Origin: a virus
Length of the DNA: 39,395 nucleotides
IMG/VR virus record: IMGVR_UViG_3300045919_000104
Span: 1 to 39,395 of that record
Direction: 5' to 3' (one strand)
Below are positions 4,901 through 19,900 of the stretch, piece after piece. Each line of letters opens with the position of its first letter. The stretch's first letter is position 1. The translations under genes were made by a program, and so were the position numbers. Below the pieces are notes generated by a model. It was not told where the DNA came from, did no database searches, and worked only from the letters and a program-made list of their open reading frames with translations.

Positions 4901-5515
4901 ATGTCCTATACGTACAATTTGATCTTCCATCCTGAACAGCGGGGTAAGTTCAAATTTGAGGTAGGTAGCAGCTATAGGCACTGGAGTCCTTGTCTTTCTG
5001 AGCTTAGTTCTAACTTCCGTGATACTGATATTACTTCTGTATCATGGGTAATGGGTATCCGTGGGGGTGAGGATACGTCAGTTGTGGATAAATTTGCTGT
5101 GTTGGTAGGATTTACTATCGAAAACCTAGAAATTCTGGATTATCCCGAATGGCCTGCAAGTTATTATTATGCCTACGATCTTGATATGACTGTGTTCAAG
5201 CGATTCTCACATCCTTCCTGTTCTGTTCAGCAAGCATTGTACATTGGTCAGTTGTATAAATTCTGGTATGGTAATACAGAAGATTGTCCGTGTGATCCTC
5301 CAACAGACCTTTCCATTCAAACGGTCGGTGACTTCGTTGCCTGTCGGTTTGGGCAAAGTGATGGCTCCTTCTTGCATCGTTTGTCTTACAAAGAAGATCT
5401 TTTCTGTAATTGTACGTTCCTTACTGGGTATGAAGAATGTGCTACCCATACGTCTTATGACATGATTGGCACAAAACTCTTGGATAAATATGAAAGTGCA
5501 GTCGAGTCAGTATAA
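4901..5515 (+). CDS. Unknown protein upstream of the amidoligase cassette (204 aa)
   Basis: No family is recognised. It is aromatic- and Cys-rich: DCPCDPP near 127 and FCNCTF near 169 could bind metal. There is no membrane span. AGGGGTA precedes ATG 4901. It overlaps the glutamine amidotransferase gene by 26 bases, so it is co-transcribed and probably coupled with the amide-bond cassette. That makes it a candidate substrate, carrier or regulator of it, by position only. Confidence 0.6.
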   Translation: MSYTYNLIFHPEQRGKFKFEVGSSYRHWSPCLSELSSNFRDTDITSVSWVMGIRGGEDTSVVDKFAVLVGFTIENLEILDYPEWPASYYYAYDLDMTVFKRFSHPSCSVQQALYIGQLYKFWYGNTEDCPCDPPTDLSIQTVGDFVACRFGQSDGSFLHRLSYKEDLFCNCTFLTGYEECATHTSYDMIGTKLLDKYESAVESV

Positions 5516-6104
5516 CGAACGATTCTTCCCTAATGAGGAAGTAATCTATCGTCCCGAGGAGTTTACCGGGGATATGCTAGTTCTATATGGTGGTGAAGAT
5601 ATAGGTACGTGTTTGTATGGGGAGAAGGCTATCTTTACTTCTTCTTATGCACTTTCTTTGAGGGATCAATATGAATGGACTATGCTTGAGAAAGCAGTTG
5701 AACGAAACACCCCAATCCTTGCTATTTGCAGGGGTGCTCAGTTGCTCAATGTTTTTGCTGGTGGCTCTCTTTTTCAACATGTGGATGGTCATGCTGGTAG
5801 GAATCATCCTATCCGTACTTCTACTGGAGACAGTTTCGTTTGTAACTCGCTACATCATCAAATGCTTCGCCTTCCCAAAGAAGGAGCAGAACTCCTAGGT
5901 TGGGCGAATGTTGGCGGTGATCGCAAGACAGACAAGGGATCGATTGTTGTCGATGATCCTGAACCTGAAATTGTATATTACCCAAAGATCAATGCCCTAG
6001 CAGTGCAGTATCATCCTGAGTGGATGAGTGAGCGGTTAGATGCAGTGCAATATGTAAAGAAGCTTGTGAAAGACAAGTTAAACATTAATCCGTGGAGTAA
6101 ATGA
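5490..6104 (+). CDS. Class I glutamine amidotransferase / C26 gamma-glutamyl hydrolase-like
   Basis: The catalytic triad of the family is visible: nucleophile Cys80 in AICRGAQLLNVFAGGSL, and His175 with Glu177 in VQYHPEW. The NSLHHQ motif (119-124) is typical of the peptidase C26/PuuD branch, which hydrolyses gamma-glutamyl amide bonds rather than feeding a synthetase. The length (204 aa) is slightly below PuuD-type enzymes. ATG 5490 gives an N-terminus that begins just before the first strand. It lies directly before two COOH-NH2 ligases, so it may process or recycle a gamma-glutamyl product, or supply ammonia. Family assignment is firm; the substrate is unknown. Confidence 0.85.
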   Translation: MKVQSSQYNERFFPNEEVIYRPEEFTGDMLVLYGGEDIGTCLYGEKAIFTSSYALSLRDQYEWTMLEKAVERNTPILAICRGAQLLNVFAGGSLFQHVDGHAGRNHPIRTSTGDSFVCNSLHHQMLRLPKEGAELLGWANVGGDRKTDKGSIVVDDPEPEIVYYPKINALAVQYHPEWMSERLDAVQYVKKLVKDKLNINPWSK

Positions 6105-6105
6105 C

Positions 6106-6897
6106 ATGAATTTTACGTTGGGTCATGATGTAGAAGTATTTCTTCAGAATGAGCAAGGTGATTTGATTAGCAGTATCGGTAAATTTGGTGGGAATAAGGG
6201 TGCTGGTATTCCTATGAACAAAGCGTACTCTGAGTACAAGATGCTCGAAGATAACGTAGCTCTTGAGTTCAATGTCCCCTCTGCTGAATGTAGGAATCAG
6301 TGGGCTACAAATATCAGTATTTTGAAACTAATTTCTAATAAGATAGTAAAGAGGAAGAAACTTGAGATCAGCCCTCTTTCTTCCGCCATCTTTCCTGATG
6401 ATCAACTAGCTGATGAGAGGGCTTGGGTATTTGGATGTGAGCCTGACTTTAATGCGTGGACAGGGCAGATGAATACTAAGCCTGTCGCACAAGATCCTCG
6501 CCTTCGCTCATGCGGTGGGCATATCCATATTGGTATCGAAGACTTATCTAATGCAGATAAAATGTCTTTGTGTAAATATTTAGATTTTTATGTTGGGATG
6601 TGGTGCGGTCTGCATGATCCAGACTTCCAACGCCGAGAGTTATATGGTAAGGCTGGCGCCATGCGATTCAAACCCTATGGATTAGAGTATCGTACCCCCA
6701 GTAACTGGTGGTATACTCACTCTGCTGAGACACAAATCTATGATCGTGTACATTGTGCTATCATATCTTGGAGTAATGGGGTCGAATTGCCTTACATCAA
6801 CAAGCTTGAACTAGCTTTGAATGAGAAGGATAATAATATGCTGGCATATATTGGACTCCGTGCTCAAGAAAAATTTGGAGTTAGCTTTGTTTCTTAA
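6106..6897 (+). CDS. PhiEco32-like COOH-NH2 ligase (amidoligase type 2)
   Basis: The glutamine-synthetase-fold ligase pattern is clear: GHDVEVFL with Glu10, VALEFNVPSAE (Glu54), SCGGHIHIG (His139, His141) and the basic/acidic strand RFKPYGLEYRTPSNWW (187-202). These supply metal and ATP ligands in the family. Such enzymes join a carboxylate to an amine using ATP. The length (263 aa) is typical. It starts one base after the amidotransferase stop, and a second, more distant ligase follows two genes on. The substrate cannot be read from sequence. Family members in phages have been proposed to act on peptides or the cell wall. Confidence 0.85.
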   Translation: MNFTLGHDVEVFLQNEQGDLISSIGKFGGNKGAGIPMNKAYSEYKMLEDNVALEFNVPSAECRNQWATNISILKLISNKIVKRKKLEISPLSSAIFPDDQLADERAWVFGCEPDFNAWTGQMNTKPVAQDPRLRSCGGHIHIGIEDLSNADKMSLCKYLDFYVGMWCGLHDPDFQRRELYGKAGAMRFKPYGLEYRTPSNWWYTHSAETQIYDRVHCAIISWSNGVELPYINKLELALNEKDNNMLAYIGLRAQEKFGVSFVS

Positions 6898-7435
6898 AGA
6901 GTATGATCTGGCAGCATGGCGGCGTAAGTTCCAAGATAACTACACTGTCATGAGTATAGATGGAAAATTATATAGTTCCTACATTCATATGCTCAATGAG
7001 GGCATCAATGGAATTAGGATAGATGGGGTTACGTTTGATAACAAAGCATTCTGTAATTATGTTGATGAATCCTTTCATCCATGCTATCATCACGTAAAGA
7101 CAGGCTGGTATAACACCTGTGATGGAGTATTGTGGATTCATCGAAAGACAGCAAAGACTTTTAATATTGGTGTAAATGATCATAGTCATTCCATTCTTCG
7201 TATTACAGGAAAATCTAACTTTCCTGATCTAGTTACTGATCCTTGTGTGTCACTTAGTACGGCACTTAACAGGGGGGGCATTCTTTCCCGTCTTGTTTAT
7301 ATCTCACCCGTCGGAGAGATTTATTATCGAAATAAAATTGTGGGTGAAATAGACGGTGACAAGCCGCTAGTAGCTAACAAGTTCTCTTTTATTCAGCAAG
7401 AAGTTCTGGATGCTTTTCGAAAGGCTAAACAATGA
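6887..7435 (+). CDS. Unknown protein between two amidoligases (182 aa)
   Basis: I do not recognise a family. The sequence is rich in His and aromatic residues (SFHPCYHHVKTGWYNTCDGVLW, a possible metal site; NDHSHS near 116) and appears beta-rich. The start is uncertain. TTG 6887 has GGAG six bases upstream and a short 11-base overlap; ATG 6821 is possible but overlaps the ligase by 77 bases without a good ribosome site. Its end overlaps the next ligase by four bases (ATGA). Conserved placement within the cassette would suggest a partner or substrate. Confidence 0.6.
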   Translation: MFLKEYDLAAWRRKFQDNYTVMSIDGKLYSSYIHMLNEGINGIRIDGVTFDNKAFCNYVDESFHPCYHHVKTGWYNTCDGVLWIHRKTAKTFNIGVNDHSHSILRITGKSNFPDLVTDPCVSLSTALNRGGILSRLVYISPVGEIYYRNKIVGEIDGDKPLVANKFSFIQQEVLDAFRKAKQ

Positions 7436-8430
7436 AATTGAAAGAATATCATTCGTACCAACCTTTGGAACACCAAGATGTTATAGAGGAGTATTGTATA
7501 GACTATCTTAAGCAGAGCCCTGATGTAGAAACAAAATTTGGTATCTATTCCAATCCGATTGGGATTGAAATCGAACTTGAGAATTTTTGTGTGGTTAAGT
7601 CCATTCCATATGAACTTTGTATGTGGCAATTCATTGAAGACTCGTCCCTGAAAATTATGGGCAGAGAGTTGGTGTCTTACCCTATGTCTGGCCGCGCGAT
7701 TGACGTAGCATTGGATCAATATAAGGGTATTCTCAATTGTCTGGCAGATAAACCCGATACAGGGCACCGTTGTTCTATCCATGTACACGTTAATGTACGT
7801 GAGTTGACTCAGCCTCAGTTGACAGCATTTGTTGCTTCATATGCCTGTCTTGAGCAGTTGTTTTTTAGTCTTGTGAAGGATCATCGAAAGGGAAATAGTT
7901 ATTGTTATCCTTTGACGGATCTTCACCCCGATAGTGCCTCCATCATGAAGTATGATCCAGCCTTCAAGTATTGTGCTTTCAATACGGATCCTGTACTTCG
8001 ATACGGTACTGTAGAGTTTAGGCATTTTCATGCAACTACAGATATTAAAGAGATTACGCGATGGCTCCAGTTAATTTGTAAGCTATATAAGTTTGTTGCG
8101 AATACACCCCCTTTGGAGATTCGTAAACAGATCATGCGTATGAATAGTCTTTCTACCTATTCTCATTTCGTAGATAATATTTTTCTTCCTCTTGGATTTA
8201 TGTTTGATAATCGACATCTCCAAGAGTTGATGGAAGACGAGGTTGCATGGGCTAAACAGTTTTTGTTGGCAAACAAGCATAAACTAACCGCCCACTTTGT
8301 CGGAGATATTAAGAAAGGAATGCAAATAAAGAAGGCACCGATCAATATGATTTTTAATATCCCGCAGTTTGTAGATGTACCCATGGAAGAAGATCAACAA
8401 CTTGAAGAAGAAGAAGAGGTGGATTCCTGA
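7432..8430 (+). CDS. Second GS-fold amidoligase
   Basis: The motifs of the putative amidoligase family are present: GIEIELE (44-50), EDSSL (69-73), GRELVSYP (77-84), RCSIHVHVN (113-121) and YGTVEFRHFHA (191-201). These form the ATP- and metal-binding sheet of the glutamine-synthetase fold. The C-terminus ends in a run of acidic residues. It differs clearly from the ligase at 6106, so the two are likely to use different substrates or act in sequence. It overlaps both neighbours by a few bases, which points to coupled expression. Confidence 0.85.
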   Translation: MKLKEYHSYQPLEHQDVIEEYCIDYLKQSPDVETKFGIYSNPIGIEIELENFCVVKSIPYELCMWQFIEDSSLKIMGRELVSYPMSGRAIDVALDQYKGILNCLADKPDTGHRCSIHVHVNVRELTQPQLTAFVASYACLEQLFFSLVKDHRKGNSYCYPLTDLHPDSASIMKYDPAFKYCAFNTDPVLRYGTVEFRHFHATTDIKEITRWLQLICKLYKFVANTPPLEIRKQIMRMNSLSTYSHFVDNIFLPLGFMFDNRHLQELMEDEVAWAKQFLLANKHKLTAHFVGDIKKGMQIKKAPINMIFNIPQFVDVPMEEDQQLEEEEEVDS

Positions 8431-9710
8431 TGTGTGGAATTTTTGGCGTAGTAAGTAAGAGTAAGGTTGGTTTTCCTAACGCGAATACCTTTAGAAATCT
8501 AGTTGATAATCTTGCTATCTTCTCTCAAGTACGTGGTAGAGATAGTGTGGGGTTCTTCTATACTGATTTAAAGAATCCTTTAGCTAGAGCGGGATGGTTT
8601 AAGTATCCTGATAATGCTTCAAAGGCTACAGAACACAAAGATTGGGCAGCTTACGTAGCTAAGACCTATGCATCAGGAGCTTGTCTTATTGGACATGTCC
8701 GCGCTGCTACGGTAGGTGAAATTTCTATTGCGAATACCCACCCGCATATAGAGGGGGATGTAACTCTAGTGCATAATGGAACCCTACGAACTGGTTGGTC
8801 AAAGTATTCTGAGCATACATCGTGGAGTGATAGTCGTGCTCTTACCTCAGCTATTAATACGTTAGGTACGAAAGCTTTTGAGGAAATTTCTGGCGCTTAT
8901 GCCTGTGTGTGGCATGATGCAAAGGATGGAAAGCTCCACATTGTCCGTAACGCAGAGCGCCCTCTTTCTATCTGGGAAGATACAGATTATATTGTTATCT
9001 GTAGTGAACCTATTCTTGCGTGGGCTGCGATAGCTCGTGCTGGAATTGATTGGAATAAAGGAAAACTTAGAGAAGTAGACACTCTCAAAGAACTACTATT
9101 TAATCTTAATACCTTTGAGTGGGAGGACACTAAAGAAGTTCCAGTTTTTCTATGGGCGGCGGCCCCTACCTGTACGCACACGACTCACTCCATCCCTACC
9201 AATGCACGAACGACAGCGCGTACTGGGACTAACTCCGAGTTTTACAGGACAGGTGAAGAAATTCTTTTCGAGTTATTTGATGAGGCTAAAATGAAGAATG
9301 GACACTACATGTACACAGGCCAAGTATTATTGGGCCATCCTGAAGCTGAAGTAGTCTTCTTTAAGAAAGAGGCCGATAAACTAAATATGGATAACGTGTT
9401 CTATAGGGGTAGTATTAAGTATTACGAGGGTAATAAACAACTATATCGTATTGATAGTAGTTCAGTGACTGTTTGTAATGAACTAAATGAGGATGTTGAC
9501 CCTACACAAGTAGCAGTTACTACATTAAATGGTGTACAATTAACTCAAGAAGAGTTTGTTAAGTATGCCAAGAAGAAGTGTCTTAACTGTGATAGTAGGA
9601 TTGATCTAGACGAGGCTCCTCTTTCTGTATATAATCACCAACATCAGCAACTTTACTGTCCTGACTGTTCTGATATCTTTTTTAATACTGTGGATTCGAG
9701 GGTACATTGA
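8430..9710 (+). CDS. Class II (Ntn-type) glutamine amidotransferase with C-terminal zinc finger
   Basis: The mature N-terminal nucleophile Cys2 is in MCGIFGVVS. Other glutaminase motifs are GRDSVG (36-41), GHVRAAT (88-94), NTHPH (102-106) and HNGTL (115-119). The protein releases ammonia from glutamine. Beyond about residue 250 there is no asparagine-synthetase or sugar-isomerase domain. Instead there is a unique region ending in a zinc-finger-like CLNC...CPDC pair. The synthetase partner must therefore be separate, and the adjacent ATP-grasp or GS-fold ligases are the obvious candidates. It starts on the last base of the previous stop. Confidence 0.85.
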   Translation: MCGIFGVVSKSKVGFPNANTFRNLVDNLAIFSQVRGRDSVGFFYTDLKNPLARAGWFKYPDNASKATEHKDWAAYVAKTYASGACLIGHVRAATVGEISIANTHPHIEGDVTLVHNGTLRTGWSKYSEHTSWSDSRALTSAINTLGTKAFEEISGAYACVWHDAKDGKLHIVRNAERPLSIWEDTDYIVICSEPILAWAAIARAGIDWNKGKLREVDTLKELLFNLNTFEWEDTKEVPVFLWAAAPTCTHTTHSIPTNARTTARTGTNSEFYRTGEEILFELFDEAKMKNGHYMYTGQVLLGHPEAEVVFFKKEADKLNMDNVFYRGSIKYYEGNKQLYRIDSSSVTVCNELNEDVDPTQVAVTTLNGVQLTQEEFVKYAKKKCLNCDSRIDLDEAPLSVYNHQHQQLYCPDCSDIFFNTVDSRVH

Positions 9711-10459
9711 AAATCTATGCGTATAAAAATACTAGCAAATCAGCTAGGCTTCTAGCTAAGGCTCTTGGATGTAAGCTTATCAAGCATGAAGGTAGTAAGT
9801 TCAAGTGGGGTACGCAACCTGTCATTAATTGGGGTAGTCGAGATGTTGGCCTTGATGGGTATGTTACCAATGGCCCTCTCAGTGTTAATTGTGCTATCGA
9901 TAAACGATGGACTCTGAGAATCCTTACGGATGCTGGTGTGTCTACCCTGCCATATACAACGCATGCACTACACGCTCGTAACTGGCTAGATGAGGGTAAG
10001 ACTGTTGTCTGTCGTACTCTTATTGACTCTCACTCAGGTAAGGGCATTGTAGTTGCAGAGACAGTCGGTGAACTTGTAGACGCACCTCTGTATACTCAAT
10101 ACATCCCCAAGAAGTTCGAGTTCCGCGTACACGTAGCATTTAACAAAGTTATTGACATTCAAGAGAAACTGAAACGAAAGGGAGTTGAACAACATGACAC
10201 AAAAATCAGGAACCATGCTAACGGCTACGTTTATGGACGTGTCGGCCTCTCAGATCGCCACGTGGACCGCCTACCAAAACTCGAAGCTCTTGGACTCGCT
10301 GCAATCTCCGCCCTCGGGCTTGACTTCGGTGCCGTTGACATCATCTGGAACGAAAAGAAAAAAGAAGGCTACGTCTGCGAAGTCAACTCAGCCCCCGGTC
10401 TTGAAGGAAGCACTGTTGGAAAATACGCTGTCGCCTTTACAGCTAATCTCCTACCCTAA
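9707..10459 (+). CDS. RimK-like ATP-grasp ligase
   Basis: ATP-grasp motifs occur in order: an N-terminal Rossmann-like part, the glycine-rich loop HSGKGIVVA, KKFEFRVHV, LDFGAVDIIW, and the metal-binding CEVNSAPGLEGST near the C-terminus. These enzymes form an acyl phosphate and join a carboxylate to an amine, often adding amino acids to peptides. The TTG start at 9707 has GAGGG four bases upstream and overlaps the amidotransferase stop. The last 266 bases are also open in another frame (see the next gene). Confidence 0.85.
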   Translation: MKIYAYKNTSKSARLLAKALGCKLIKHEGSKFKWGTQPVINWGSRDVGLDGYVTNGPLSVNCAIDKRWTLRILTDAGVSTLPYTTHALHARNWLDEGKTVVCRTLIDSHSGKGIVVAETVGELVDAPLYTQYIPKKFEFRVHVAFNKVIDIQEKLKRKGVEQHDTKIRNHANGYVYGRVGLSDRHVDRLPKLEALGLAAISALGLDFGAVDIIWNEKKKEGYVCEVNSAPGLEGSTVGKYAVAFTANLLP

Positions 10460-11105
10460 CCAGAATTACAACGAGGAAGCTCAGTCCTTCCCTCTAAAGA
10501 TGGCTTTTGGTGTGATTAACGTCCTTGAAGGGACATTGACACAACAAACGAGTTACTTTGTATGCCGTGAGTTTATCAATGATGTGTTGTATTATAACAA
10601 CACTGATAAGTCTTATACTATTTATAGTTTTGATGGGAAAGTCGTTAGTCCCGATGTTTTGATGTTTGAAGATAGTGACCTTCTTGAGAACCTCCGTAGT
10701 AACTATTGGCTTCTTACTTCCATTGAGAATAGTTTGTTTATTGGTAGGTCTAGTTGGTTGGATAAGAATACGTTGGTTCTCCCCGGACATTTCTTGCAGC
10801 ATCCATACGTAACGAGTCTTTGGAGTACGTGGATAAAGGTTCTATGTCAAGGTAAGAATTATGTGTCTTTAAAAGAAGCCTTTGATTGTTGTACAGGTAA
10901 TGAGAGACATATCATAAACAGTGACTGGGAACAGCACAAGAAAGAAATCAAGGTGTGTGCTAATCTAGGTCCGTTTAACTACGATCTCTTTAAGGGTTTA
11001 TCGATGTATGTGATCCATTCTACAGGGTTCAGAGCGTTTCTAAATAGTTTTGTACAGAAAAAGTGGAATAAAAAAGTACAAGAAGAACTGGCTAAACTGA
11101 AATGA
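10194..11105 (+). CDS. Unknown protein overlapping the ATP-grasp gene (303 aa, start uncertain)
   Basis: No family is recognised. From ATG 10194, with AAAGGGAG nine bases upstream, the ORF overlaps the ATP-grasp gene by 266 bases in another frame. This gives a Ser/Thr/Lys-rich N-terminal extension of about 88 residues before a globular part of mixed helices and strands. An alternative ATG at 10500 avoids the overlap but has no good ribosome site. The C-terminus overlaps the next gene by four bases. It is the last gene that could belong to the amide-bond cassette. Confidence 0.6.
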   Translation: MTQKSGTMLTATFMDVSASQIATWTAYQNSKLLDSLQSPPSGLTSVPLTSSGTKRKKKATSAKSTQPPVLKEALLENTLSPLQLISYPNQNYNEEAQSFPLKMAFGVINVLEGTLTQQTSYFVCREFINDVLYYNNTDKSYTIYSFDGKVVSPDVLMFEDSDLLENLRSNYWLLTSIENSLFIGRSSWLDKNTLVLPGHFLQHPYVTSLWSTWIKVLCQGKNYVSLKEAFDCCTGNERHIINSDWEQHKKEIKVCANLGPFNYDLFKGLSMYVIHSTGFRAFLNSFVQKKWNKKVQEELAKLK

Positions 11106-11299
11106 AATGTCTAAGTTGTGATAAAATCTTGTCTGACTTTGAAGCTACGCGTAAGTATACGGATACGACAGATTTCGTAGACCTGTGCAATAAGTGCTTC
11201 AGTTTCGTACACGAAGTCATTAATGTTACTGAGAATTACAGTCTATTAACTACAGATGATATCAATGAGCTAGAGGATTATGATTATGACGAAGACTAA
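11102..11299 (+). CDS. Small zinc-ribbon protein (65 aa)
   Basis: CLSC near the start and CNKC at about 30-33 form a four-cysteine zinc-ribbon of the kind common in small phage proteins; the tail is very acidic (ELEDYDYDED). It overlaps the preceding gene by four bases (ATGA). It probably binds protein or nucleic acid; the function is unknown. Confidence 0.65.
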   Translation: MKCLSCDKILSDFEATRKYTDTTDFVDLCNKCFSFVHEVINVTENYSLLTTDDINELEDYDYDED

Positions 11300-11477
11300 T
11301 AAGTTTCTTGATAAGTACCAGAAGTTGTTTGGAAAGTATGCTCTTTCTGAGGGTAGTGGAGGTTGCTCAACCTGTGGGTACGGGGCCGATAGTGTTATGA
11401 GTGAGTGGGATTTCAAGAGTCTTCTTAACGATATTGATGTGTGGATTAAAGAGGAGTTTGGGAATGAAAAAGATTAA
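11280..11477 (+). CDS. Hypothetical protein with CxxC (65 aa)
   Basis: Unrecognised. One CSTC motif (29-32) lies in a Gly-rich loop, and the acidic helical C-terminus ends EEFGNEKD. Two starts, ATG 11280 and ATG 11286, share the upstream GAGG. It overlaps both neighbours slightly. Confidence 0.5.
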   Translation: MIMTKTNKFLDKYQKLFGKYALSEGSGGCSTCGYGADSVMSEWDFKSLLNDIDVWIKEEFGNEKD

Positions 11478-11790
11478 AGTCTCTGAATCCACAGGCCCAG
11501 TGCTCGACTGGCTGGTGGCGAAGTGTGAACTCGGAGATACGGTGCACTATGTGTGGGAACATGCCCGAAACAAGCACCGTTACTCCACGAACTGGGCACA
11601 AGGTGGCCCGGTCATCGAGCGTGAGCGGATCAACACGCTGGACAATGGGGGTGATTTCTCGTGTTACTACAGCCGTGGTGCGGCGGTTGGAATTCGCTAC
11701 ACCGGCCCCACACCCCTGATCGCGGCCATGCGCTGCTGTGTGATAAGCAAGCTGGGCGAGGAAGTCGGAGTCCCCGAGGAACTGACATGA
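11464..11790 (+). CDS. NinX/DUF2591-like phage protein (108 aa)
   Basis: It matches the phage P22 NinX/DUF2591 pattern: MKKIKVSESTGPVLDWLVAKCE at the start, YSTNWAQGGPVIERE in the middle, and GPTPLIAAMRCCVISKLGEEV-type C-terminal residues. NinX is encoded in the nin regions of lambdoid phages and its role is unknown. ATG 11464 is chosen because it begins the conserved domain and GGGA lies upstream. Codon use is markedly more G+C-rich than the genes before it, suggesting separate acquisition. Confidence 0.8.
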   Translation: MKKIKVSESTGPVLDWLVAKCELGDTVHYVWEHARNKHRYSTNWAQGGPVIERERINTLDNGGDFSCYYSRGAAVGIRYTGPTPLIAAMRCCVISKLGEEVGVPEELT

Positions 11791-11975
11791 CACGAACTAA
11801 CTATCAGAAGTTTGCTGAGTTCATATATCTTGCAACAGAGGTACATGAGTTTGATGCTGCGTTATTTATTTCTAATCTCTGTGCCTATTTTGAAGAAGAT
11901 AACCCTAACTTTGATCGAGAGAAGTTCATTGAAGCTTGTACTTATGGGAGGATGAAAGATGTACGAGACCTGTAG
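11787..11975 (+). CDS. Hypothetical protein (62 aa)
   Basis: A small acidic helical protein, not recognised. Its ATG overlaps the NinX-like stop (ATGA), so translation is coupled. It is A+T-rich again, unlike its neighbours. Confidence 0.55.
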   Translation: MTRTNYQKFAEFIYLATEVHEFDAALFISNLCAYFEEDNPNFDREKFIEACTYGRMKDVRDL

Positions 11976-12189
11976 ATGCTGCAAACTCCAACCTGATGCA
12001 TACTGCCGTGACGATGGGCGATGCCAATACGCGATTGACCACGGCGCAGAGGGCATGGCGAATTGCCCAACAGGAAAGTGTGCAATGCAATCCGCCGCTC
12101 CTGCCTTGTCCATGAGCATGTTTGCGACCAGAGAAGATTATGAAGCCGCAAGCAAAGCCGCACACGGCATCAACAAGGGGGAAGTATGA
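11959..12189 (+). CDS. Cys-rich hypothetical protein (76 aa)
   Basis: The N-terminal half carries six Cys (CRCC, YCRD, RCQY, NCPTGKC), likely to bind zinc, and is followed by an Ala/Met-rich segment. GGGAGG lies upstream of ATG 11959. It overlaps both neighbours by a few bases. Similar small Cys-rich proteins occur in many phage accessory regions; function unknown. Confidence 0.6.
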   Translation: MYETCRCCKLQPDAYCRDDGRCQYAIDHGAEGMANCPTGKCAMQSAAPALSMSMFATREDYEAASKAAHGINKGEV

Positions 12190-12761
12190 CTGACCGCGAA
12201 CTGTTGGAACTGGCTGCAAAATCCTTGGGGATTCGTTTTTATCCAGACGGATACGACGAACATTTACCGTTCCCATGTGTTCTTGAAGATGGTTTCCCTA
12301 TTGAGTGGAACCCACTGATAGACGACGGCGACGCACTGCGGCTTGCGGTGAGGCTGAAAATGGAAATTATTCCAGACCCAGAGGGCGACGAATTTGCATC
12401 TACACGCCGCACCATCGTTCGCGCTGCCGCTGAGGTAGGACGTGGAATTATTCAGCAGACAATCGACGGCTTACCCGAGGATAACTACTACAAGACTCGG
12501 GCAGAAGCTAAAAAGATCGGCAAGGGGGGAAGCATGAGCCTGCCAACGCTGCCGCCGCTTAAATACGACGATCACCCGACATTTAATCAAGATGGTATTG
12601 GATGGTCGCAAGAAGAAATTGAGGCAATCAATAAGTACGCCGCCCTCGCGGTTGCTGCTGAACGTGAGCGGTGCGCGAAGATTTGTGAAGATTTAGAAAG
12701 TGATGGTATGTCTTGGCTTGAAGCAGGAACGTGTGCAGCAGCAATCAGGAACCAACCATGA
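12186..12761 (+). CDS. Phage accessory protein, two modules (191 aa)
   Basis: Residues 1-60 (TDRELLELAAKSLGI, WNPLIDDGDALRLAVRLKM) and residues about 130-191 (GWSQEEIEAINKYA, AAERERCAKICED) are both pieces often seen as separate small proteins in phages of Proteobacteria. Here they sit in one ORF, which suggests a fusion. No enzymatic motif is visible. It overlaps its neighbours by four bases on each side. Confidence 0.65.
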   Translation: MTDRELLELAAKSLGIRFYPDGYDEHLPFPCVLEDGFPIEWNPLIDDGDALRLAVRLKMEIIPDPEGDEFASTRRTIVRAAAEVGRGIIQQTIDGLPEDNYYKTRAEAKKIGKGGSMSLPTLPPLKYDDHPTFNQDGIGWSQEEIEAINKYAALAVAAERERCAKICEDLESDGMSWLEAGTCAAAIRNQP

Positions 12762-12940
12762 AGCTAGCTAAACATATCATGCTGTCGCTTTTCATCTGCA
12801 TGTCCGTGTACTTGTGTGCAGCGTTCGTTTCACTCAAGCCAAACCCTGCTGATTGGGATCAAGGCGGAAGGGCATTTTTCGTTGTCCTGTGCCTTGCGTA
12901 CTGCTTACTTGGGAACATGGCAATGAAGGAGGAAACATGA
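12758..12940 (+). CDS. Small membrane protein (60 aa)
   Basis: Two hydrophobic segments (about 7-26 and 39-54) are separated by a polar loop (KPNPADWDQGGR). The short basic N-terminus suggests the N-in orientation. ATG 12758 overlaps the preceding stop. No family is recognised. Confidence 0.55.
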   Translation: MKLAKHIMLSLFICMSVYLCAAFVSLKPNPADWDQGGRAFFVVLCLAYCLLGNMAMKEET

Positions 12941-13452
12941 AGCCTAGCGCGATAGTTTCAGAAGTTGCGGAAGTTAAAATGAAGGAACTATCACGATGGA
13001 AAAGCACGAATGCGCTGAGGATCGAGGCGCTCGAAGGGCTGAAAAATCACTACCATGAACTGGCTGAGAGAGGCGCTGAAGCAATAAAGACTCTGTCGTC
13101 AGAGCGTGAAGCCAATGCGATTCTGACCGCAGAGGTTGACGCACTCCGCGCACGAGTGGCGGAGCTTGAAAAGGAGCGCGATTACTACGCCTCTGAGGAT
13201 GAAAAGCTACTGAACGAAATTGGTCGCCTACTTGATGACGTGAAATACGCCGGAAGCTATGCCGAGGGTGTGCGTGTGCTACTAGCAAAGGTGTCGGAGC
13301 TTGAAAAGGATGCGGCGAGGTACCAGACTGTTAGATCGTGGTTTTTGGAAGTTTCATGGAACAGGTCTTATGACTTTGGGTTTACGTGTCCTGAAGATGT
13401 TGATGCAGAAATCGACGCGATGATAAAGGATGAAAATGGGGAGATTTCTTAA
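12937..13452 (+). CDS. Coiled-coil phage protein (171 aa)
   Basis: Residues about 45-125 have leucine/alanine heptads typical of a coiled coil (AEVDALRARVAELEKERD, EKLLNEIGRLLDD). The C-terminus has an aromatic cluster and an acidic helix. It resembles Ead/Ea22-type accessory proteins in style only. AAGGAGG lies upstream of ATG 12937. It overlaps the primase start by 17 bases. Confidence 0.65.
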   Translation: MKPSAIVSEVAEVKMKELSRWKSTNALRIEALEGLKNHYHELAERGAEAIKTLSSEREANAILTAEVDALRARVAELEKERDYYASEDEKLLNEIGRLLDDVKYAGSYAEGVRVLLAKVSELEKDAARYQTVRSWFLEVSWNRSYDFGFTCPEDVDAEIDAMIKDENGEIS

Positions 13453-14137
13453 ACATGGTCCATGCAATAAGTGCGGCAGCCGCGATAACGTGGCTCATTA
13501 TGACGATGGTGGTTGGTTTTGCTTTGGTTGTGGCTACTCTCTCCGGGGAACTAGAGTCACCTCTAGCCAACTTCCTGCTACCCATAGTCTCGCTCTTCCT
13601 GACGATCTTACAAATAATCTACCTCGTTCCAATCATACTTGGTTGGCTCAGTACCTAACGGAGACAGAAATTGCTGATAACTTTTCTTATTCTCCTTCTT
13701 CCCGCCGTCATATTTATATGGTGCGTGACCTATCCCACACACCTATTTTCTATGAGGCGAGACGAGTCGGTGAACTCTACGGCAAACCGAAAACCCTGAG
13801 CTTTGGTGAAAAACCCTTCCATCTGTTGCGTAAAAACAACAGTGATGATAAAGTAGTTTTGGTTGAAGATATTATCTCAGCAATCAAGATCAATCGTCAG
13901 TTCAATTCGTTTCCCCTGTTTGGTACGCACATACCTATCTCGAAATTAAAACGATTCAAGAGCCTTCCAAACCCCTTAAAAACGATTCTGATCTGGTTGG
14001 ATAGGGATAAATTCAAGGAAGCAATGAAATTAAGCAAGGTTTGTGAGTTGCTTGGATACAACAGTCGTGTGATTTCAACAGAGATAGATCCAAAGGGGTT
14101 GACAGATCAAGAAATCTGTGATAGAATAAATGTATAA
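13436..14137 (+). CDS. T7-type DNA primase
   Basis: This corresponds to the N-terminal part of T7 gp4. It has a zinc finger (Cys10, Cys13, Cys29, Cys32, with WFCFGCGY), then a TOPRIM fold with VVLVEDIISA (Glu144) and the metal-binding WLDRD (Asp189, Asp191). It makes RNA primers on the lagging strand. ATG 13436 has AAAGG six bases upstream; ATG 13430 is adjacent to that site and less likely. Unlike T7, the helicase is a separate gene 143 bases downstream, so primase and helicase must associate as distinct proteins. Confidence 0.85.
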   Translation: MGRFLKHGPCNKCGSRDNVAHYDDGGWFCFGCGYSLRGTRVTSSQLPATHSLALPDDLTNNLPRSNHTWLAQYLTETEIADNFSYSPSSRRHIYMVRDLSHTPIFYEARRVGELYGKPKTLSFGEKPFHLLRKNNSDDKVVLVEDIISAIKINRQFNSFPLFGTHIPISKLKRFKSLPNPLKTILIWLDRDKFKEAMKLSKVCELLGYNSRVISTEIDPKGLTDQEICDRINV

Positions 14138-14280
14138 GCCGAGAAACTATAAGCACAAAAACTAATATTCTATATAATACATAGAGTAGTTAATACTACA
14201 TAAGAAAAACAAAACCTTATAATGATACTCAACCTTACCTGTTTAGCACAGGTATAGGTTTCGTAAAGAAAGGACAATCT
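14138..14280 (+). other. A+T-rich gap between primase and helicase
   Basis: There is no gene. It contains a TATAAT at 14173-14178 without a good -35 box, and a hairpin at 14231-14260 (TACCTGT/ACAGGTA extended by AACCT/AGGTT past a bulge). The AAAGGA ribosome site of the helicase follows. It may be a regulatory leader or an attenuator. Confidence 0.5.
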
Positions 14281-15501
14281 TTGTCTTATGAATTAAACAT
14301 CATTAAATCTTTCTTGAACAAAGAGTGTTACATCAACTACAGGAACTATGTTGATAAAAAGCTCTTGTCTTTGGAAGTATCAAAGATTCTAACAGTGTTA
14401 GATGAACTACAACGTGCTTCAGAAAAAGACATTTCTTTGTCTGATCTTGAACATATAACACTGTCTAAAGAAAATCCATTTGAGACTTACCAAGAGATCT
14501 TCTCAGTGCTTGAGAAACTAGAACAGTCTTTCACTATAGAAAAGCTCCTAGAATCAATTAAAAATCGTAAGCTGTTGGAAGATATCAGTGCTGCTGCATA
14601 CGACGCTTCTAAGGGCTTTAAAGAGGTTACAGACATACTCTCGTTGGTGGATAAGCTTACAAATCCTGTAGATGAAACAGTAGTCGAGTATGTAACAGAT
14701 GATTTGGAGGATATTCTTAGTGATACCGTTAAAACACCGGGTCTTCGTTGGAGGCTCAATATGCTTAACAAGAGTCTTGGATCACTCCGAAAGGGTGACT
14801 TTGGTTTCTTGTTTGCAAGACCCGAGACAGGCAAGACAACGTTTCTTGCGTCAGAAGTATCGTTCATGGCAGAGCAAGCCTTCCAGAAAGGAGCAGGACC
14901 AGTTCTCTGGTTCAATAATGAGGAACGAGGCAAGAAAGTTAAGCTCCGCGTATATCAAGCGGTACTGGGAGCGCGCGTTGAACACCTACTATCCGCCCCA
15001 GAGCGTGCAAAGGCGGCATATGTTGCGAAAGTTGGACAGAGCATTAAACTCTTTGACTCTTCGCTCATCTCTAAATACTTTGTTGAAACGGTATGCGCCA
15101 AAGAAAAGCCGAGCCTCGTTGTGTTTGACCAACTTGACAAGGTTACTGGCTTTAAGGGAGATCGAACAGACTTGGTTCTGGGTGAGATCTATACATGGGC
15201 GAGATCCTTGGCGAAAGAGTATTGCCCCGTCATTGGGGTATCTCAGGCAGATGGTACTGCGGAAGGTATTGACTACCTTGAAATGTCACATGTCGCTAAC
15301 GCCAAGACAGCGAAGCAAGCTGAAGCCGATTGGATATTGGGTATAGGTAAGAAACCTGAAGCTGCGTTTGATCTGGTACGTTACTTCCATATCTGCAAGA
15401 ATAAGCTTTCCGGTGATGGAATTGATATGCAACCTAACCTAAGGCATGGAAGATTTGAAGTTCTGATAAAGGCAGATATTGCACGTTATGCAGACATCTG
15501 A
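14281..15501 (+). CDS. DnaB-like replicative helicase (RecA fold)
   Basis: The C-terminal half is a DnaB/T7 gp4-type helicase: Walker A ARPETGKTT (Lys185), an acidic NNEE after the next strand, Walker B SLVVFDQLDK (Asp283), GVSQADGTA as the glutamine switch, and a C-terminal R-finger region near NKLSGDG. The N-terminal 130 residues are helical, likely for oligomer or primase contact. TTG 14281 is the start: AAAGGA lies seven bases upstream and no in-frame ATG is near. It unwinds duplex DNA ahead of the polymerase. A palindrome copy lies inside the gene at 14388. Confidence 0.85.
   Translation: MSYELNIIKSFLNKECYINYRNYVDKKLLSLEVSKILTVLDELQRASEKDISLSDLEHITLSKENPFETYQEIFSVLEKLEQSFTIEKLLESIKNRKLLEDISAAAYDASKGFKEVTDILSLVDKLTNPVDETVVEYVTDDLEDILSDTVKTPGLRWRLNMLNKSLGSLRKGDFGFLFARPETGKTTFLASEVSFMAEQAFQKGAGPVLWFNNEERGKKVKLRVYQAVLGARVEHLLSAPERAKAAYVAKVGQSIKLFDSSLISKYFVETVCAKEKPSLVVFDQLDKVTGFKGDRTDLVLGEIYTWARSLAKEYCPVIGVSQADGTAEGIDYLEMSHVANAKTAKQAEADWILGIGKKPEAAFDLVRYFHICKNKLSGDGIDMQPNLRHGRFEVLIKADIARYADI
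14388..14402. promoter_or_regulatory. 15-bp palindrome, copy 6
   Basis: TCTAACAGTGTTAGA inside the helicase coding region, about 107 bases after its start. An exact match within a gene is unexpected by chance and may mark an internal binding site. Confidence 0.55.
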
Positions 15502-15688
15502 TAATGAGTATACTACAGCAGTCCTGTTCCTAGAGGATGTAATCAACGGTTGGATACCACATATCCCTCCACAGTCTGATAGATGTATTACAGCTATTCA
15601 ACATGCCTTGGAAGTTCTCGTATCCAACGAACACTTTGATGGTGAAAATAGACAACTGTTTACACACGATAAAAGGTTTAAACAATGA
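15488..15688 (+). CDS. Hypothetical protein (66 aa)
   Basis: Not recognised; small and soluble. ATG 15488 overlaps the helicase end by 14 bases, and the end overlaps the next gene by four bases. It is probably translated by coupling. Confidence 0.5.
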   Translation: MQTSDNEYTTAVLFLEDVINGWIPHIPPQSDRCITAIQHALEVLVSNEHFDGENRQLFTHDKRFKQ

Positions 15689-15918
15689 ACAAGATATGTC
15701 GAACATGTAAGTTTTGGGAAAAACCCCATTCATGGGAAGCAGGTACAGACTTAGAATTACTAGGGGGATATTGTCATAATCCAAAAATTAGAGAAGATAA
15801 TGACGTATCCGAGAATGTATTTGCAATTGATGGATTAGTATATCCCTATCATGAAGGGGCACAGCATTTCTGGACGGGACCTATTTTTGGTTGTGTTCTG
15901 CATGAACTACAGGAGTAA
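15685..15918 (+). CDS. Cys-containing phage protein (77 aa)
   Basis: The pattern CRTCKFW ... GYCHN ... FGCVLHE is a recurring four-cysteine signature of small phage proteins that probably bind zinc. It overlaps the preceding gene (ATGA) and the following nuclease gene. Function is not known. Confidence 0.65.
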   Translation: MNKICRTCKFWEKPHSWEAGTDLELLGGYCHNPKIREDNDVSENVFAIDGLVYPYHEGAQHFWTGPIFGCVLHELQE

Positions 15919-16186
15919 GAAACTTGTCGAAGCTTGTAGAGAACTGCCCTGTATGGCTTGTGGTAAGCAGGATGGGACAGTGGTGGCGGCTCACTCAAAT
16001 CAACAGAAGGACGGAAAAGGAACCGGAATTAAGGCTCACGACTTCCGGGTTGCAGCATTATGTTATGAATGCCACATGGAAATTGATCAGGGAAGCAACC
16101 TATCCTATAGCGATAGAATTGCCAGATGGGAGGACGCACATCGTAATACCATTGGGTGTCTCTTCCTCAAAGGAATCATTAAGTGA
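15902..16186 (+). CDS. HNH-like / Ref-type nuclease (94 aa)
   Basis: It resembles DUF1364/Ref-like HNH proteins: LPCMACGK (first CxxC), VVAAHSNQ (general-base His), GTGIKAHDFRVAALCYECHMEID (second CxxC and catalytic His). Such proteins are small DNA nucleases encoded near phage replication genes. ATG 15902 lacks a strong ribosome site and overlaps the previous gene by 17 bases. A competing frame from 15924 is open but shows no domain. Confidence 0.7.
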   Translation: MNYRSKKLVEACRELPCMACGKQDGTVVAAHSNQQKDGKGTGIKAHDFRVAALCYECHMEIDQGSNLSYSDRIARWEDAHRNTIGCLFLKGIIK

Positions 16187-17337
16187 TACTTACTCTTGAC
16201 TGTGAAACAACGATTAACCAAGGGGTAAATAAAGATGGGTATGATCTCACTAAACTTAATGGCGGTGGCGTACATGACCAGTTTCAATCCATGGTTTGCT
16301 TTTCTTGGTACACCGATGCAGGTAACTCAGGATGTGGTATTAACGATGAAGAATATTTTGAAGATCTTCAGCAACTAATCAATGAAGCAGAACTTATTGT
16401 CGGATTTAACTTCAAGTTTGACTACCAGTGGTTTAAGCGTTATGGAATTAAACTCGATCATAAACGCATTTGGGATTGTCAGACAGCAGAGTTCATCCTC
16501 TCACGGCAGGAACATCGCTTTCCAAGCCTTGACGAATGCTGTGCAAAGTATGGACTCGGAGCCAAGCTTGATGTTGTCAAGTACGATTACTGGCAAAAGG
16601 GGATAGATACAAATAACGTACCTTGGGAGATCCTCTCCGCTTATGCACTAGAGGACACCAGACTTACGTTGGAACTATACAAGAAACAGAAGGAAGTAGT
16701 TGGCTCGAAGGAACGCATAATCTCTCTATGCTGTCAAGACCTTGTAGGTTTAGCAGAAATGGAGTATAATGGTATGCGTTACCAACGAGAGGAGAGTCTA
16801 CGCAAAGCCAAGGAAATAGAAGTACAGCTTGCTGATCTGGATAGAAAAATCAGTAAGTTTCACAGTGTCCCTAATTTTAACCCTAATAGTAACGATCATC
16901 TGTCTGCCCTTCTTTATGGTGGGACGATTACTGATGACGTTCATGTCCCCGTTGGGATTTATAAAACAGGTTGGAAAATCGGAGCAACCCGATACAAGAT
17001 TGAAGTAAATGAGTTTGTCCTGCCAAGGCTTATAAAGCCCTTGAAGGGCACAGAGATGGCTAAGGGTGGGTTGTATAGTACATCAGAGGATACGTTGCTT
17101 AAACTGCCCTCTCATCCCGTCCTAGAGCTAATCCTAGAATCAAGGAAGCTAGCGAAACTTCGTGGAACCTACTATGAAGGGCTTCCTGCTAGACAGGATG
17201 AAATGAATGCGGGTTATGAATACATCTACGGACAGTTCAATCAGTGCGTAGCACAGACAGGTAGGCTATCAAGCAGCAAACCAAACCTTCAGAATATTCC
17301 AGATGACATCCAAAAGTTATTTGTATCACGATACTAG
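16183..17337 (+). CDS. DNA polymerase part I (3'-5' exonuclease and start of polymerase domain)
   Basis: This is a family A (T7-type) DNA polymerase N-terminal portion. The exonuclease site is complete: LTLDCET (Asp6, Glu8), VGFNFKFD (Asp80), YALED (Tyr154, Asp158). The polymerase domain begins and runs through the helix-strand motif TGRLSSSKPNLQNIP (359-373), then IQKLFVSRY and a stop at 17335. The palm motifs A-C are missing here and occur in the next gene. With part II the total (384 + 234 aa) matches a normal polymerase. Either two proteins reassemble or the interruption is removed from RNA. It overlaps the nuclease gene by four bases. Confidence 0.85.
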   Translation: MILTLDCETTINQGVNKDGYDLTKLNGGGVHDQFQSMVCFSWYTDAGNSGCGINDEEYFEDLQQLINEAELIVGFNFKFDYQWFKRYGIKLDHKRIWDCQTAEFILSRQEHRFPSLDECCAKYGLGAKLDVVKYDYWQKGIDTNNVPWEILSAYALEDTRLTLELYKKQKEVVGSKERIISLCCQDLVGLAEMEYNGMRYQREESLRKAKEIEVQLADLDRKISKFHSVPNFNPNSNDHLSALLYGGTITDDVHVPVGIYKTGWKIGATRYKIEVNEFVLPRLIKPLKGTEMAKGGLYSTSEDTLLKLPSHPVLELILESRKLAKLRGTYYEGLPARQDEMNAGYEYIYGQFNQCVAQTGRLSSSKPNLQNIPDDIQKLFVSRY

Positions 17338-17510
17338 AGCTAATGAAGAGGCATCTTATTTTCACGCCTTGACAGACTTCGGTAAGATATGTTATAATAA
17401 TGCTCCTAAAGTAATTGGAGACATTGAAAAATACTTTCCTGAGGTGTATGATCAACTTCTTGACGCTATTATTTGGCACATAGATTCTAAAAAAACAAAA
17501 GGGGTTCTTC
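17338..17510 (+). other. 173-base interruption of the DNA polymerase gene
   Basis: It separates VSRY of part I from the motif A strand of part II, a place where family A polymerases normally need only a few residues. It is A+T-rich, carries a promoter-like TTGACA-18-TATAAT and ends in AAAGGGG before TTG 17511. No conserved group I core was recognised, and it is short for one. It could be an insertion that made two genes, or a small intron. Confidence 0.65.
17369..17398 (+). promoter_or_regulatory. Promoter-like element inside the polymerase interruption
   Basis: Exact TTGACA and TATAAT boxes with an 18-base spacer. It would transcribe part II of the polymerase separately. The match could be chance in A+T-rich DNA, but both hexamers are perfect. 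Confidence 0.5.
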
Positions 17511-18215
17511 TTGCTGGTAGCCGTTGATGCAGCGCAGTTGGAATGGCGCTGTGCAGCATGGCTAAGTAATGACGAAGTGGCTCTCAGGGAGATTAACAGT
17601 GGTGCCGACACTCACAGCCTCAATCAGGAAGCTTTCAATCTTCCTTCAAGACTTATTTCAAAGATTTATCTCTTTCGAACAATTTTCAGGGGAAGTGGTT
17701 ATGCCTTTGCTCATGACCCTAGCTTTAGTCATGTATCTTCATCTCCTGACTTCTGGGATGATATAAATTGTAAATTCTACAATAAGTATTCGGGACTTGA
17801 CAGATGGCATACGAGCCTTGCTCAACTCAGTGCTTCCCGGCAGCCAATTCAAGGTCCAACCGGGAGAGAGTGGCTTATTCTACCTGACGATAAAGGTAAG
17901 CTCAAGTGGAGTACATTCACCAACTATCCCGTTCAAGGAACTGGGGCAGACCTTGTTGCAATTGCACGGGTATCTCTTCGCAACCGCCTGTCTGCCAAAG
18001 GAACAATGGCCCTCCCAGTCTCAACTGTTCACGATAGTATCGTCTGGGATTGTCCCGACAGTGAAGTTCCCGTAGTAGCACAAACTATGGTAGATGTTTT
18101 TAATGATCTACCTTTGAATTTTAATAAGTTGTTTAAACAAAAACTACCCTGTCCCTTCCCCGGTGAAGTCAAGATAGGTAAGAATCTTTCCGAGATGGAG
18201 AAGTATATTGTCTGA
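17511..18215 (+). CDS. DNA polymerase part II (palm and fingers)
   Basis: It contains the catalytic motifs of family A polymerases: motif A VAVDAAQLEWR (Asp6, Glu11), motif B around RLISKIYLFRTIFRGSGYAF (Arg47, Lys51), and motif C VSTVHDSIVWD (His174, Asp175). TTG 17511 has AAAGGGG six bases upstream, so it could be translated alone. The protein would begin right at the motif A strand. Without part I it lacks the thumb and exonuclease. It overlaps the next gene by eight bases. Confidence 0.85.
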   Translation: MLVAVDAAQLEWRCAAWLSNDEVALREINSGADTHSLNQEAFNLPSRLISKIYLFRTIFRGSGYAFAHDPSFSHVSSSPDFWDDINCKFYNKYSGLDRWHTSLAQLSASRQPIQGPTGREWLILPDDKGKLKWSTFTNYPVQGTGADLVAIARVSLRNRLSAKGTMALPVSTVHDSIVWDCPDSEVPVVAQTMVDVFNDLPLNFNKLFKQKLPCPFPGEVKIGKNLSEMEKYIV

Positions 18216-18741
18216 TATGAACATCAGTATTATTGCAGTAGACCGAGAAGTTATTCAGAAGAAGAAGGGGCCGGGTACGTACGAAGTATTGAACGTAACC
18301 TACAAGAACCACACATTTCAAGATAAGGTAGAATCAAAGAAGTTGGTGGACTTTGCAACCGATAAGGATCTTTACAAGACAGTCGGTGATGCAAATAAAG
18401 GTGATACATTTTCAATTGAACGGGAAAAAGATGCTACTGGACAGTATTGGAACTGGGTTGGGATCGCACGACAGGACGGAACGGTTAGTGGAGCGGCTAG
18501 TTCTAGCAAGCCTACTAGCTCGGTTACAACCAAAAGCACTTACCAAACGCCAGAAGAACGCGCTGCTGTACAACTTTACATCATCAGGCAGTCTAGTATT
18601 GCAAGCGCAGTCAACTTGACTAAGGATCATGGTACTCCTACTGCTGATAGTGTGATTGAAATTGCACGAAAGTTTGAAGAATATGTTCTTGGAATCGAGC
18701 AGCCTACCATTGAGAATCTTTCTAACGATATTCCTTACTAA
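18208..18741 (+). CDS. Putative single-stranded DNA-binding protein (177 aa)
   Basis: The N-terminal 95 residues look like an OB-type domain of the kind found next to phage polymerases (beta-rich, ending in REKDATGQYWNWVGI). A Ser/Thr/Gly linker (95-112) and a helical C-terminal domain (TPEERAAVQLYIIRQSSI) follow. The position directly after the polymerase supports a role in coating ssDNA and recruiting replication proteins. TTG 18208 has GGAG seven bases upstream; ATG 18217 is the alternative and lacks a close site. No exact homologue is claimed. Confidence 0.6.
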   Translation: MSDMNISIIAVDREVIQKKKGPGTYEVLNVTYKNHTFQDKVESKKLVDFATDKDLYKTVGDANKGDTFSIEREKDATGQYWNWVGIARQDGTVSGAASSSKPTSSVTTKSTYQTPEERAAVQLYIIRQSSIASAVNLTKDHGTPTADSVIEIARKFEEYVLGIEQPTIENLSNDIPY

Positions 18742-18911
18742 TGTATAACATTTATCGTAATAATCGTTTGGTTACGAAACAGAAGTTCTATGAATACGAA
18801 GTAGCTCGCCGCATGGCACGCTACATCATTCGTAACCAGTTTGAAGGTATTGTATTCCCTGAAAGCAATCCACCTATCTCTGCTTTCGGATTTGAAATTC
18901 GTAAGGGTTAA
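18741..18911 (+). CDS. Hypothetical basic protein (56 aa)
   Basis: Small and Arg/Tyr-rich (EVARRMARYIIRNQ helix), not recognised. ATG 18741 shares its A with the preceding stop. It may contact nucleic acid given its charge. A tRNA-like element follows ten bases later. Confidence 0.5.
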   Translation: MYNIYRNNRLVTKQKFYEYEVARRMARYIIRNQFEGIVFPESNPPISAFGFEIRKG

Positions 18912-18920
18912 TTGAAGTAT

Positions 18921-18990
18921 GCTAAGGAACCCAAATGGTTCGGGTAGGTGACAAGCCAGACTGTAGTTGGTTCGATTCCAACCCTTAGTG
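18921..18990 (+). tRNA. Degenerate tRNA-like element
   Basis: A 7-bp acceptor stem (GCTAAGG with CCTTAGT) and a perfect T arm (GTTGG-TTCGATT-CCAAC) are present, with a D-arm-like hairpin (ACCC/GGGT around AAATGGTTC). No canonical 5-bp anticodon stem with 7-nt loop can be formed. CAGACTGTAG resembles a tRNA-Tyr anticodon arm that lost its 3' half. The length (about 70 nt) is short. It is probably a pseudo-tRNA or a tRNA-like RNA; amino-acid identity cannot be given. Confidence 0.45.
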
Positions 18991-19007
18991 CCCAATAAAG
19001 GATACCT

Positions 19008-19181
19008 ATGAGCAAAGGTTCTAAACAACGTCCTACAGACAAGCTTCAGTTTGATAAGGGATGGGACATTATCTTTGGTTCTACAAAGAAACCTGATGTT
19101 GTTCTTAAAGATCCCTATTTCAAGGAAGAAGATCCCTATGAGGATTATAAACCTCAAGACAGCCCTGTATGCAAAGAATAG
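19008..19181 (+). CDS. Hypothetical protein (57 aa)
   Basis: A small charged protein with a basic N-terminus (MSKGSKQRP) and an acidic, proline-rich tail, not recognised. AAAGGA lies upstream of ATG 19008. It overlaps the exonuclease gene by 13 bases. Confidence 0.55.
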   Translation: MSKGSKQRPTDKLQFDKGWDIIFGSTKKPDVVLKDPYFKEEDPYEDYKPQDSPVCKE

Positions 19182-19900
19182 CCCTCCTTGATGGAGATAT
19201 AATTGGCTACCGTTCCGCCGCTTCCTGCAACCCCACCAAGTCCAAACCCTTCCTCGAACCCTTGGACACTGCTATCCAACGTGCAGACGAACTCTGCTGG
19301 AGAATCCTCACGGATGTTGATTCTTCAGAGTACGAAATGTATCTGGGAGGCTCTGAGAACTTTAGAAAGCAAATTGACCCCGAATACAAGGCTAATCGTA
19401 AAAGTGAAAAACCACAATGGCTTGAGCCAGTACGGGAGTTTCTTATTGAAGAATGGCAAGCTAAGGTCTGTGGAGGTTACGAAACTGATGATGCTTTGTC
19501 AATGCGGGCCACAGAACTTGGACCCGGGAAATTTGTAATATGTAGTATTGACAAAGACTTGAAACAAATACCCGGAGATCACTATAACTTCGTTAAACTT
19601 GAGCATTTCACCATCGATATTTATCAGGCAGCAAAACACTTTTGGGCTTCAATGCTTATCGGAGATACCGCTGACAATATCCGTGGAGTTGACGGACTTG
19701 GACAGGTTAAGGCTTACCGAGCATTGGAAGGACTTGATTCAGAAGAGTTCTATGACAAAGTACGAGAAATCTATAATGATGATGATAGATTTACCAAAAA
19801 CATGGTACTCCTCCATCTTTTATGCAGTCGAGAAGAATGGCACGACGTAAACCATCTATACGGGCTAGAGCCATTAAGCACGGCTACCGCTCAGGACTAG
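19169..19900 (+). CDS. 5'-3' exonuclease (FEN / T7 gp6 type)
   Basis: The flap-nuclease metal site is present in order: LLDGDIIGYR (Asp8, Asp10), YKANR (73-77), YETDDAL (Asp107, Asp108), SIDKDLKQ (Asp128, Asp130), GDTADN (Asp166, Asp169), then the helix-hairpin-helix GVDGLGQVKA. The enzyme removes RNA primers and degrades host DNA to nucleotides in T7-like phages. ATG 19169 has no strong ribosome site and is probably coupled to the gene before it. It overlaps the endonuclease gene by 79 bases. Confidence 0.85.
   Translation: MQRIALLDGDIIGYRSAASCNPTKSKPFLEPLDTAIQRADELCWRILTDVDSSEYEMYLGGSENFRKQIDPEYKANRKSEKPQWLEPVREFLIEEWQAKVCGGYETDDALSMRATELGPGKFVICSIDKDLKQIPGDHYNFVKLEHFTIDIYQAAKHFWASMLIGDTADNIRGVDGLGQVKAYRALEGLDSEEFYDKVREIYNDDDRFTKNMVLLHLLCSREEWHDVNHLYGLEPLSTATAQD

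Follow-up and report, generated by a model that had tools for sequence, protein, structure and literature searches.

The window analysed here, a stretch of 39,395 nucleotides (39.4 kb) deposited as IMG/VR virus record IMGVR_UViG_3300045919_000104, comes from an uncultured podovirus with a genome layout similar to that of the Zobellviridae-type phage MEP401. Its first 24 kb hold early and replication genes on the forward strand, and the remainder carries mostly reverse-strand structural genes. A run of six conserved genes at positions 5490-10459 forms a cassette. Five of its products had been described in a preliminary description as amide-chemistry enzymes in one overlapping forward run, and profile libraries confirmed all five, three of them also by comparison with solved structures.

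The cassette opens with a class I glutamine amidotransferase-like hydrolase of the C26 family (5490-6104, forward strand), a PuuD/SpuA-like protein that matched PF07722 (E=1e-22) and phrog_7218 (1.6e-30) in profile searches and whose closest solved structures are the SpuA-type amidotransferase Lin1909 and PuuD. The previously proposed catalytic triad, Cys80-His175-Glu177, is exact when counted from the ATG at 5490 and invariant across 25 homologues, in whose alignment it appears as 88/183/185, counted from a TTG at 5466. The two different GS-fold ligases were also borne out. GS2 (6106-6897, forward), a type 2 COOH-NH2 ligase, matches PF14395 (E=2e-10, which exceeds the cut-off) and phrog_3815 (1.1e-58), and GS1 (7432-8430, forward), an Amidoligase_2 protein, matches PF12224 (E=4e-12, again exceeding the cut-off) and phrog_7469 (2.6e-30). 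In alignments of 31 homologues, D8/E10, H139/H141 and E194/R196 of GS2 and E46/E48/E50, H117/H119 and E195/R197 of GS1 are invariant, and the window copies of both ligases retain the paired acidic and HxH residues.

Next comes GAT-II (8430-9710, forward), a class II (Ntn) glutamine amidotransferase recognised by PF13522 (E=4e-14) and phrog_4736 (4.4e-41). It keeps Cys2 beside Met1, the GH.R.AT.G motif, R91, Asn116-Gly117 and Asp134. Its best solved relative, GlmS (4amv, 3.7e-21), is matched over the glutaminase half only, in agreement with the earlier reading of a Cys2 enzyme devoid of a synthetase domain; instead of such a domain, GAT-II carries a tail of about 200 residues ending in a CxxC...CxxC zinc ribbon. 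The last gene (9707-10459, forward) encodes a RimK-like ATP-grasp ligase, an assignment made from phrog_2599 (5.4e-70) and from solved structures, among which RimK scores best (1.7e-13); the Pfam RimK match is weak (4e-4) and just under the cut-off. Residues K66, R103, E138, R140, K154, D211 and N227 are invariant in an alignment of 28 homologues. An R2K (CDC123-like) identity was rejected for this enzyme, as its Pfam matches are only to RimK and Ins134_P3_kin and RimK is best among structures. Loss of catalytic residues was thus looked for in alignments of 25-31 homologues and refuted, the residues being invariant or nearly so.

The set had earlier been drawn as five genes spanning 4901-11105, a view that needs revision at both ends as well as in gene number. 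The outer open reading frames, 4901-5515 and 10460-11105, were rejected as members, homologues of each being absent from all of the first 42 loci fetched. Downstream of the cassette, PHROGs and Pfam identify a primase (13430-14137), a DnaB-like helicase (14281-15501), a split family A DNA polymerase, exonucleases, endonuclease I and ribonucleotide reductase. The cassette therefore lies upstream of primase/helicase and polymerase in the window, and a conserved replication protein family is found downstream of it in 135 of 150 loci. The polymerase occupies two open reading frames (16183-18215, with a gap at 17338-17510); the split is probably natural. The enzyme is likewise split in MEP401 (gp13/gp15), and the annotation 'DNA polymerase part I' in UFV-P2 parallels it.

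The primase is preceded by a small protein (11102-11299) that combines a zinc ribbon with an acidic tail. Its family occurs in 57 of 150 cassette loci and in MEP401-type phages, although a consensus-like query matched only four phage records, and its C-terminus is not conserved. By annotation and HMM search it is also present in ct2os315, a phage carrying no cassette gene, and for this reason the protein is assigned as a companion of the primase, not of the cassette. A role as amino-group carrier or as a target of the ATP-grasp ligase was considered for it and rejected, since it precedes the primase even in a phage lacking the cassette and has an unconserved tail. Unlike the carriers of LysW/LysX systems, which bear a conserved C-terminal glutamate motif and are linked to a RimK-like ligase, it shows no such motif and also occurs without that ligase.

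In the reverse-strand structural arm (24111-39395), head-closure and holin genes accompany one for a 1657-residue protein. The open reading frames scanned there included no recognisable terminase, portal, major capsid protein or endolysin, and the record may therefore be incomplete. End repeats are absent, and it is possibly a fragment. A second assembly of the same phage is available (IMGVR_UViG_3300046018_000026), identical to window positions 8288-20456 over 12,169 bases (100% identity). A megablast search of the cassette region against phages returned zero matches.

A conserved protein between the two ligases

The sixth member, component X, was overlooked in the preliminary description. 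It is a conserved protein of about 182 residues encoded between GS2 and GS1 (6887-7435, forward; the start is placed by inference at a TTG at 6887 in an open reading frame that opens at 6821). In the first loci examined, 36 of the open reading frames filling the gap between the two ligases belong to one sequence family, whose HMM matches the window at E=1.3e-25. Among 72 GS1-anchored loci whose flanks extend 6.5 kb or more to either side, a profile search found the family in 71, making X a core member of the cassette. It corresponds to phrog_11055 and phrog_4877, both without assigned function. The window copy is an outlier, with 8-19% identity to the family, whereas the neighbouring cassette proteins are typical; where the family has the motif RxPxRQWxRG, the window has RKTAKTFNIG, in which the first Arg and the Gly are kept and the Pro is lost.

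Structure prediction for the window protein itself, from 24 sequences, was too weak for use (pLDDT 70). An AF2 model of a family member from another locus, built from 74 sequences, reached pLDDT 94 and consists mainly of beta strands with short helices. Foldseek comparison of this model with viral models returned only proteins of unassigned function (best E 4.8e-9), including one from Salinivibrio phage CW02, itself a cassette carrier; against the PDB nothing was significant, Tudor/SH3-like folds being best at E >= 0.06. X is thus predicted to be a small beta-rich protein with no recognised relatives outside its own family. As no active site is recognisable, it probably assists GS1 and GS2 without catalysing a reaction itself, as a scaffold or binding protein.

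Cassette proteins have been detected by mass spectrometry in a preparation of the phiEco32-like phage SU10, among them an early protein with an expected mass of 23.3 kDa (PMC4281155). This mass fits SU10_087 (23.28 kDa), the X homologue by position, better than the printed SU10_086 (42.2 kDa), and the detected protein is therefore probably X.

Co-retention and descent of the cassette

In the IMG/VR sample of 72 distinct GS1-anchored loci, GS2, GAT-II and the ATP-grasp ligase are each present in every locus and C26 in 69, counts to be read with the caveat that cassette queries were used to find the loci, which were then ranked by how closely they resemble the window, so that complete copies are over-sampled. 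Locus sets anchored on the ATP-grasp ligase and on C26 agree. A tblastn search of 50,697 sequenced phage records likewise found near-equal numbers for GS1 (285), GS2 (309), the ATP-grasp ligase (310) and GAT-II (314), with similar genus counts. The genes are therefore not scattered among related phages. The window's order, C26-GS2-X-GS1-GAT-II-ATP-grasp, is shared by 34 of the 72 loci and the order C26-GAT-II-GS2-X-GS1-ATP-grasp by 12; the GS2-X-GS1 core is almost never broken. In loci L035, L207, L209, L213 and others, the ATP-grasp gene lies upstream of GAT-II or is present twice. No domain fusion joins the members, in that no open reading frame matched two of the families. A reduced form comprising only GS1 and GAT-II is found in marine OM43-type (MEP401-type) phages.

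Across 126 loci, the pairwise divergences of C26, GS2, X, GS1 and GAT-II are mutually correlated (r 0.67-0.79). That these genes make up a single system, as proposed, has strong support from this correlation together with near-universal co-retention and conserved order. All members except the ATP-grasp ligase correlate about equally with the neighbouring primase-family replication protein (r 0.68-0.77), from which it follows that the cassette is old and inherited along with the phage backbone; its co-retention thus partly reflects common descent. The ATP-grasp ligase is the least congruent with the other members (r 0.43-0.53), which suggests exchange or duplication. In cellular genomes, GS2 gave 12 matches in 84,980, all on MAG contigs of 4.8-49.5 kb; since nine of the 12 contigs carry most of the cassette, they are probably phage contigs binned with their hosts.

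A gamma-glutamyl-cleaving enzyme, either C26 or GGCT, is part of the cassette, and in the window this part is taken by C26. GGCT was not found in the window and is likewise missing from 52 of the 72 GS1-anchored loci, which makes it an optional companion; it accompanies the cassette in the other 20 and is common among LUZ24-like phages. In the reduced cassette of the MEP401-type locus L229 (707-3700), a GGCT gene lies directly 3' of GAT-II. Many isolates carry one of the two enzymes and few carry both, a pattern based on a few clades. Mutual exclusion was rejected as proof that the two enzymes are equivalent: it is suggestive in isolates and not clear in IMG/VR, where 60 loci have C26 only, 19 have both, three have GGCT only and three have neither.

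Candidate chemistry and target

It is quite probable that the window carries a new copy of the phiEco32-/LUZ24-/PA11-like cassette and that this cassette performs a general amide and gamma-glutamyl chemistry, whatever its target. The amide or gamma-linked chemistry proposed earlier is well supported by what the enzymes are and by their intact active-site residues; it would use glutamine as nitrogen source, form amide bonds at the expense of ATP and cleave gamma-glutamyl bonds. Confidence in it is high, and in the wall target discussed below it is lower. Enzymes of the C26 and GGCT families attack gamma-glutamyl amides. That C26 is closest to PuuD-type hydrolases and that GGCT is the other frequent companion point to gamma-glutamyl chemistry.

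We infer a reaction order from the enzyme families. GAT-II would split glutamine, supplying ammonia or a glutamyl group that, given its full glutamine site and absent synthetase domain, must be passed to another enzyme; GS1 is the indicated partner, since the smallest natural set consists of GS1 and GAT-II, adjacent in MEP401-type phages. GS1 and GS2 would each use ATP to convert a carboxylate into an acyl phosphate, which then reacts with ammonia or an amine. The RimK-like ligase would add an amino acid, probably glutamate, onto a carboxylate, and C26, or GGCT in other phages, would cut gamma-glutamyl amides, trimming or recycling an intermediate. The most likely effect of the product is a change in some host component early in infection.

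The first choice of target, held tentatively, is the published one, a host peptidoglycan stem-peptide precursor. Hosts of the named cassette isolates are mostly Gram-negative, which fits a gamma-D-glutamyl-diaminopimelate wall target, although the fit is confounded by phage descent. No Mur-ligase, UDP-MurNAc-binding, export or other wall-specific domain was seen to indicate peptidoglycan. Possible as the second choice, with a lower probability, is that the cassette makes a free gamma-glutamyl metabolite, amine conjugate or peptide active inside infected cells, with C26 or GGCT removing a gamma-glutamyl protecting group. Such protecting groups are used in the Puu pathway (PuuA/PuuD) and in butirosin synthesis (BtrJ/BtrG), and the reading draws on the similarity of C26 to PuuD/SpuA-type enzymes, on the recurrence of GGCT in LUZ24-like phages and beside GAT-II in the reduced cassette, and on the isolates that have one cutter and seldom both. 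The Puu and butirosin parallels would apply by analogy, however, the isolate pattern comes from few clades, and the two cutters are not clearly exclusive in IMG/VR loci. Somewhat more doubtful is a dedicated phage pathway to an undescribed gamma-glutamyl or isopeptide product, in which X would be a phage-only scaffold or substrate binder organising GS2 and GS1, and C26 and GGCT would be interchangeable deprotectors.

Tagging of a host or phage protein, whose acidic C-terminus would receive glutamates from the RimK-like enzyme, ranks third and is unlikely. The closest solved relatives of the ATP-grasp ligase are indeed RimK S6 glutamate ligases, and an acidic-tailed candidate, the zinc-ribbon protein, lies just downstream; that protein nevertheless has the cassette-independent occurrence and unconserved C-terminus described above, and simple glutamylation needs neither two GS-fold ligases nor a gamma-glutamyl cutter. 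Amidotransferases participate in some base modifications and the cassette usually adjoins primase/polymerase genes, from which a role in modifying phage DNA bases, raised in the preliminary description, might be argued. This is very improbable, as HaeIII digests DNA of the cassette-bearing LUZ24-like phage tf, which also yields ordinary Sanger reads (PMC3517423), and no base-modification gene was recognised among the window open reading frames scanned. Similar genes have been interpreted in one study as nitrogen-metabolism helpers (PMC10945688); that the cassette consists of unrelated auxiliary metabolic neighbours of this kind is least credible of all in view of the near-total co-retention and the fixed GS2-X-GS1 core.

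Relation to known cassettes

Although the cassette's first description implied novelty, hundreds of phages are already known to carry it, and the addition made here is X as a core component. It has been named the 'Peptidoglycan Modification Cassette' (PMC5498523) and the 'peptidoglycan modification module' (PMC11945000); the former paper credits Iyer et al. (2009) and Hardies et al. (2013), and the peptidoglycan-modification idea is cited for phiEco32 (PMC10580990). The open literature searched yielded no biochemical result or direct functional test for any member. About 310 of the 50,697 phage records carry core genes, among them phages that infect P. aeruginosa, E. coli, Salmonella and Vibrio. 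With a constant core (C26 or GGCT, GS2, X, GS1, GAT-II and ATP-grasp) and a natural minimum of GS1 and GAT-II, the function is directly testable in laboratory phages.

The cassette is seen across LUZ24-, phiEco32-, PA11-, CW02- and phiM6-type phages, and its genes occur in near-identical order in UFV-P2, QDWS535, ctOsX528, CVT22, Ty, 7-11, Bas87, CW02 and phiM6. Like the window, the RIO-1/PSA-HP1-, LUZ24- and phiEco32-like podoviruses combine GS2, GS1, GAT-II, a RimK-like ATP-grasp ligase and a gamma-glutamyl cutter as early genes beside the primase, with an X-sized open reading frame in the matching place; the window differs from them in having C26 and no GGCT and in its outlying X. The OM43 phages MEP401 and MEP402 have a genome plan similar to the window's, with adjacent GS1 and GAT-II genes that precede those for the zinc-ribbon protein and the primase, whereas GS2, X, the ATP-grasp ligase and C26 were not found in MEP401. 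The Zobellviridae CVT22, Ty and CW02 have all six components including C26, as does the window, but place GAT-II upstream of GS2 instead of between GS1 and the ATP-grasp gene. The environmental podovirus ctOsX528 (MW202697), with proteins strongly diverged from those of the window (25-44% identity where measured), has the same order, C26-GS2-X-GS1-GAT-II-ATP-grasp, followed by the same downstream zinc-ribbon protein.
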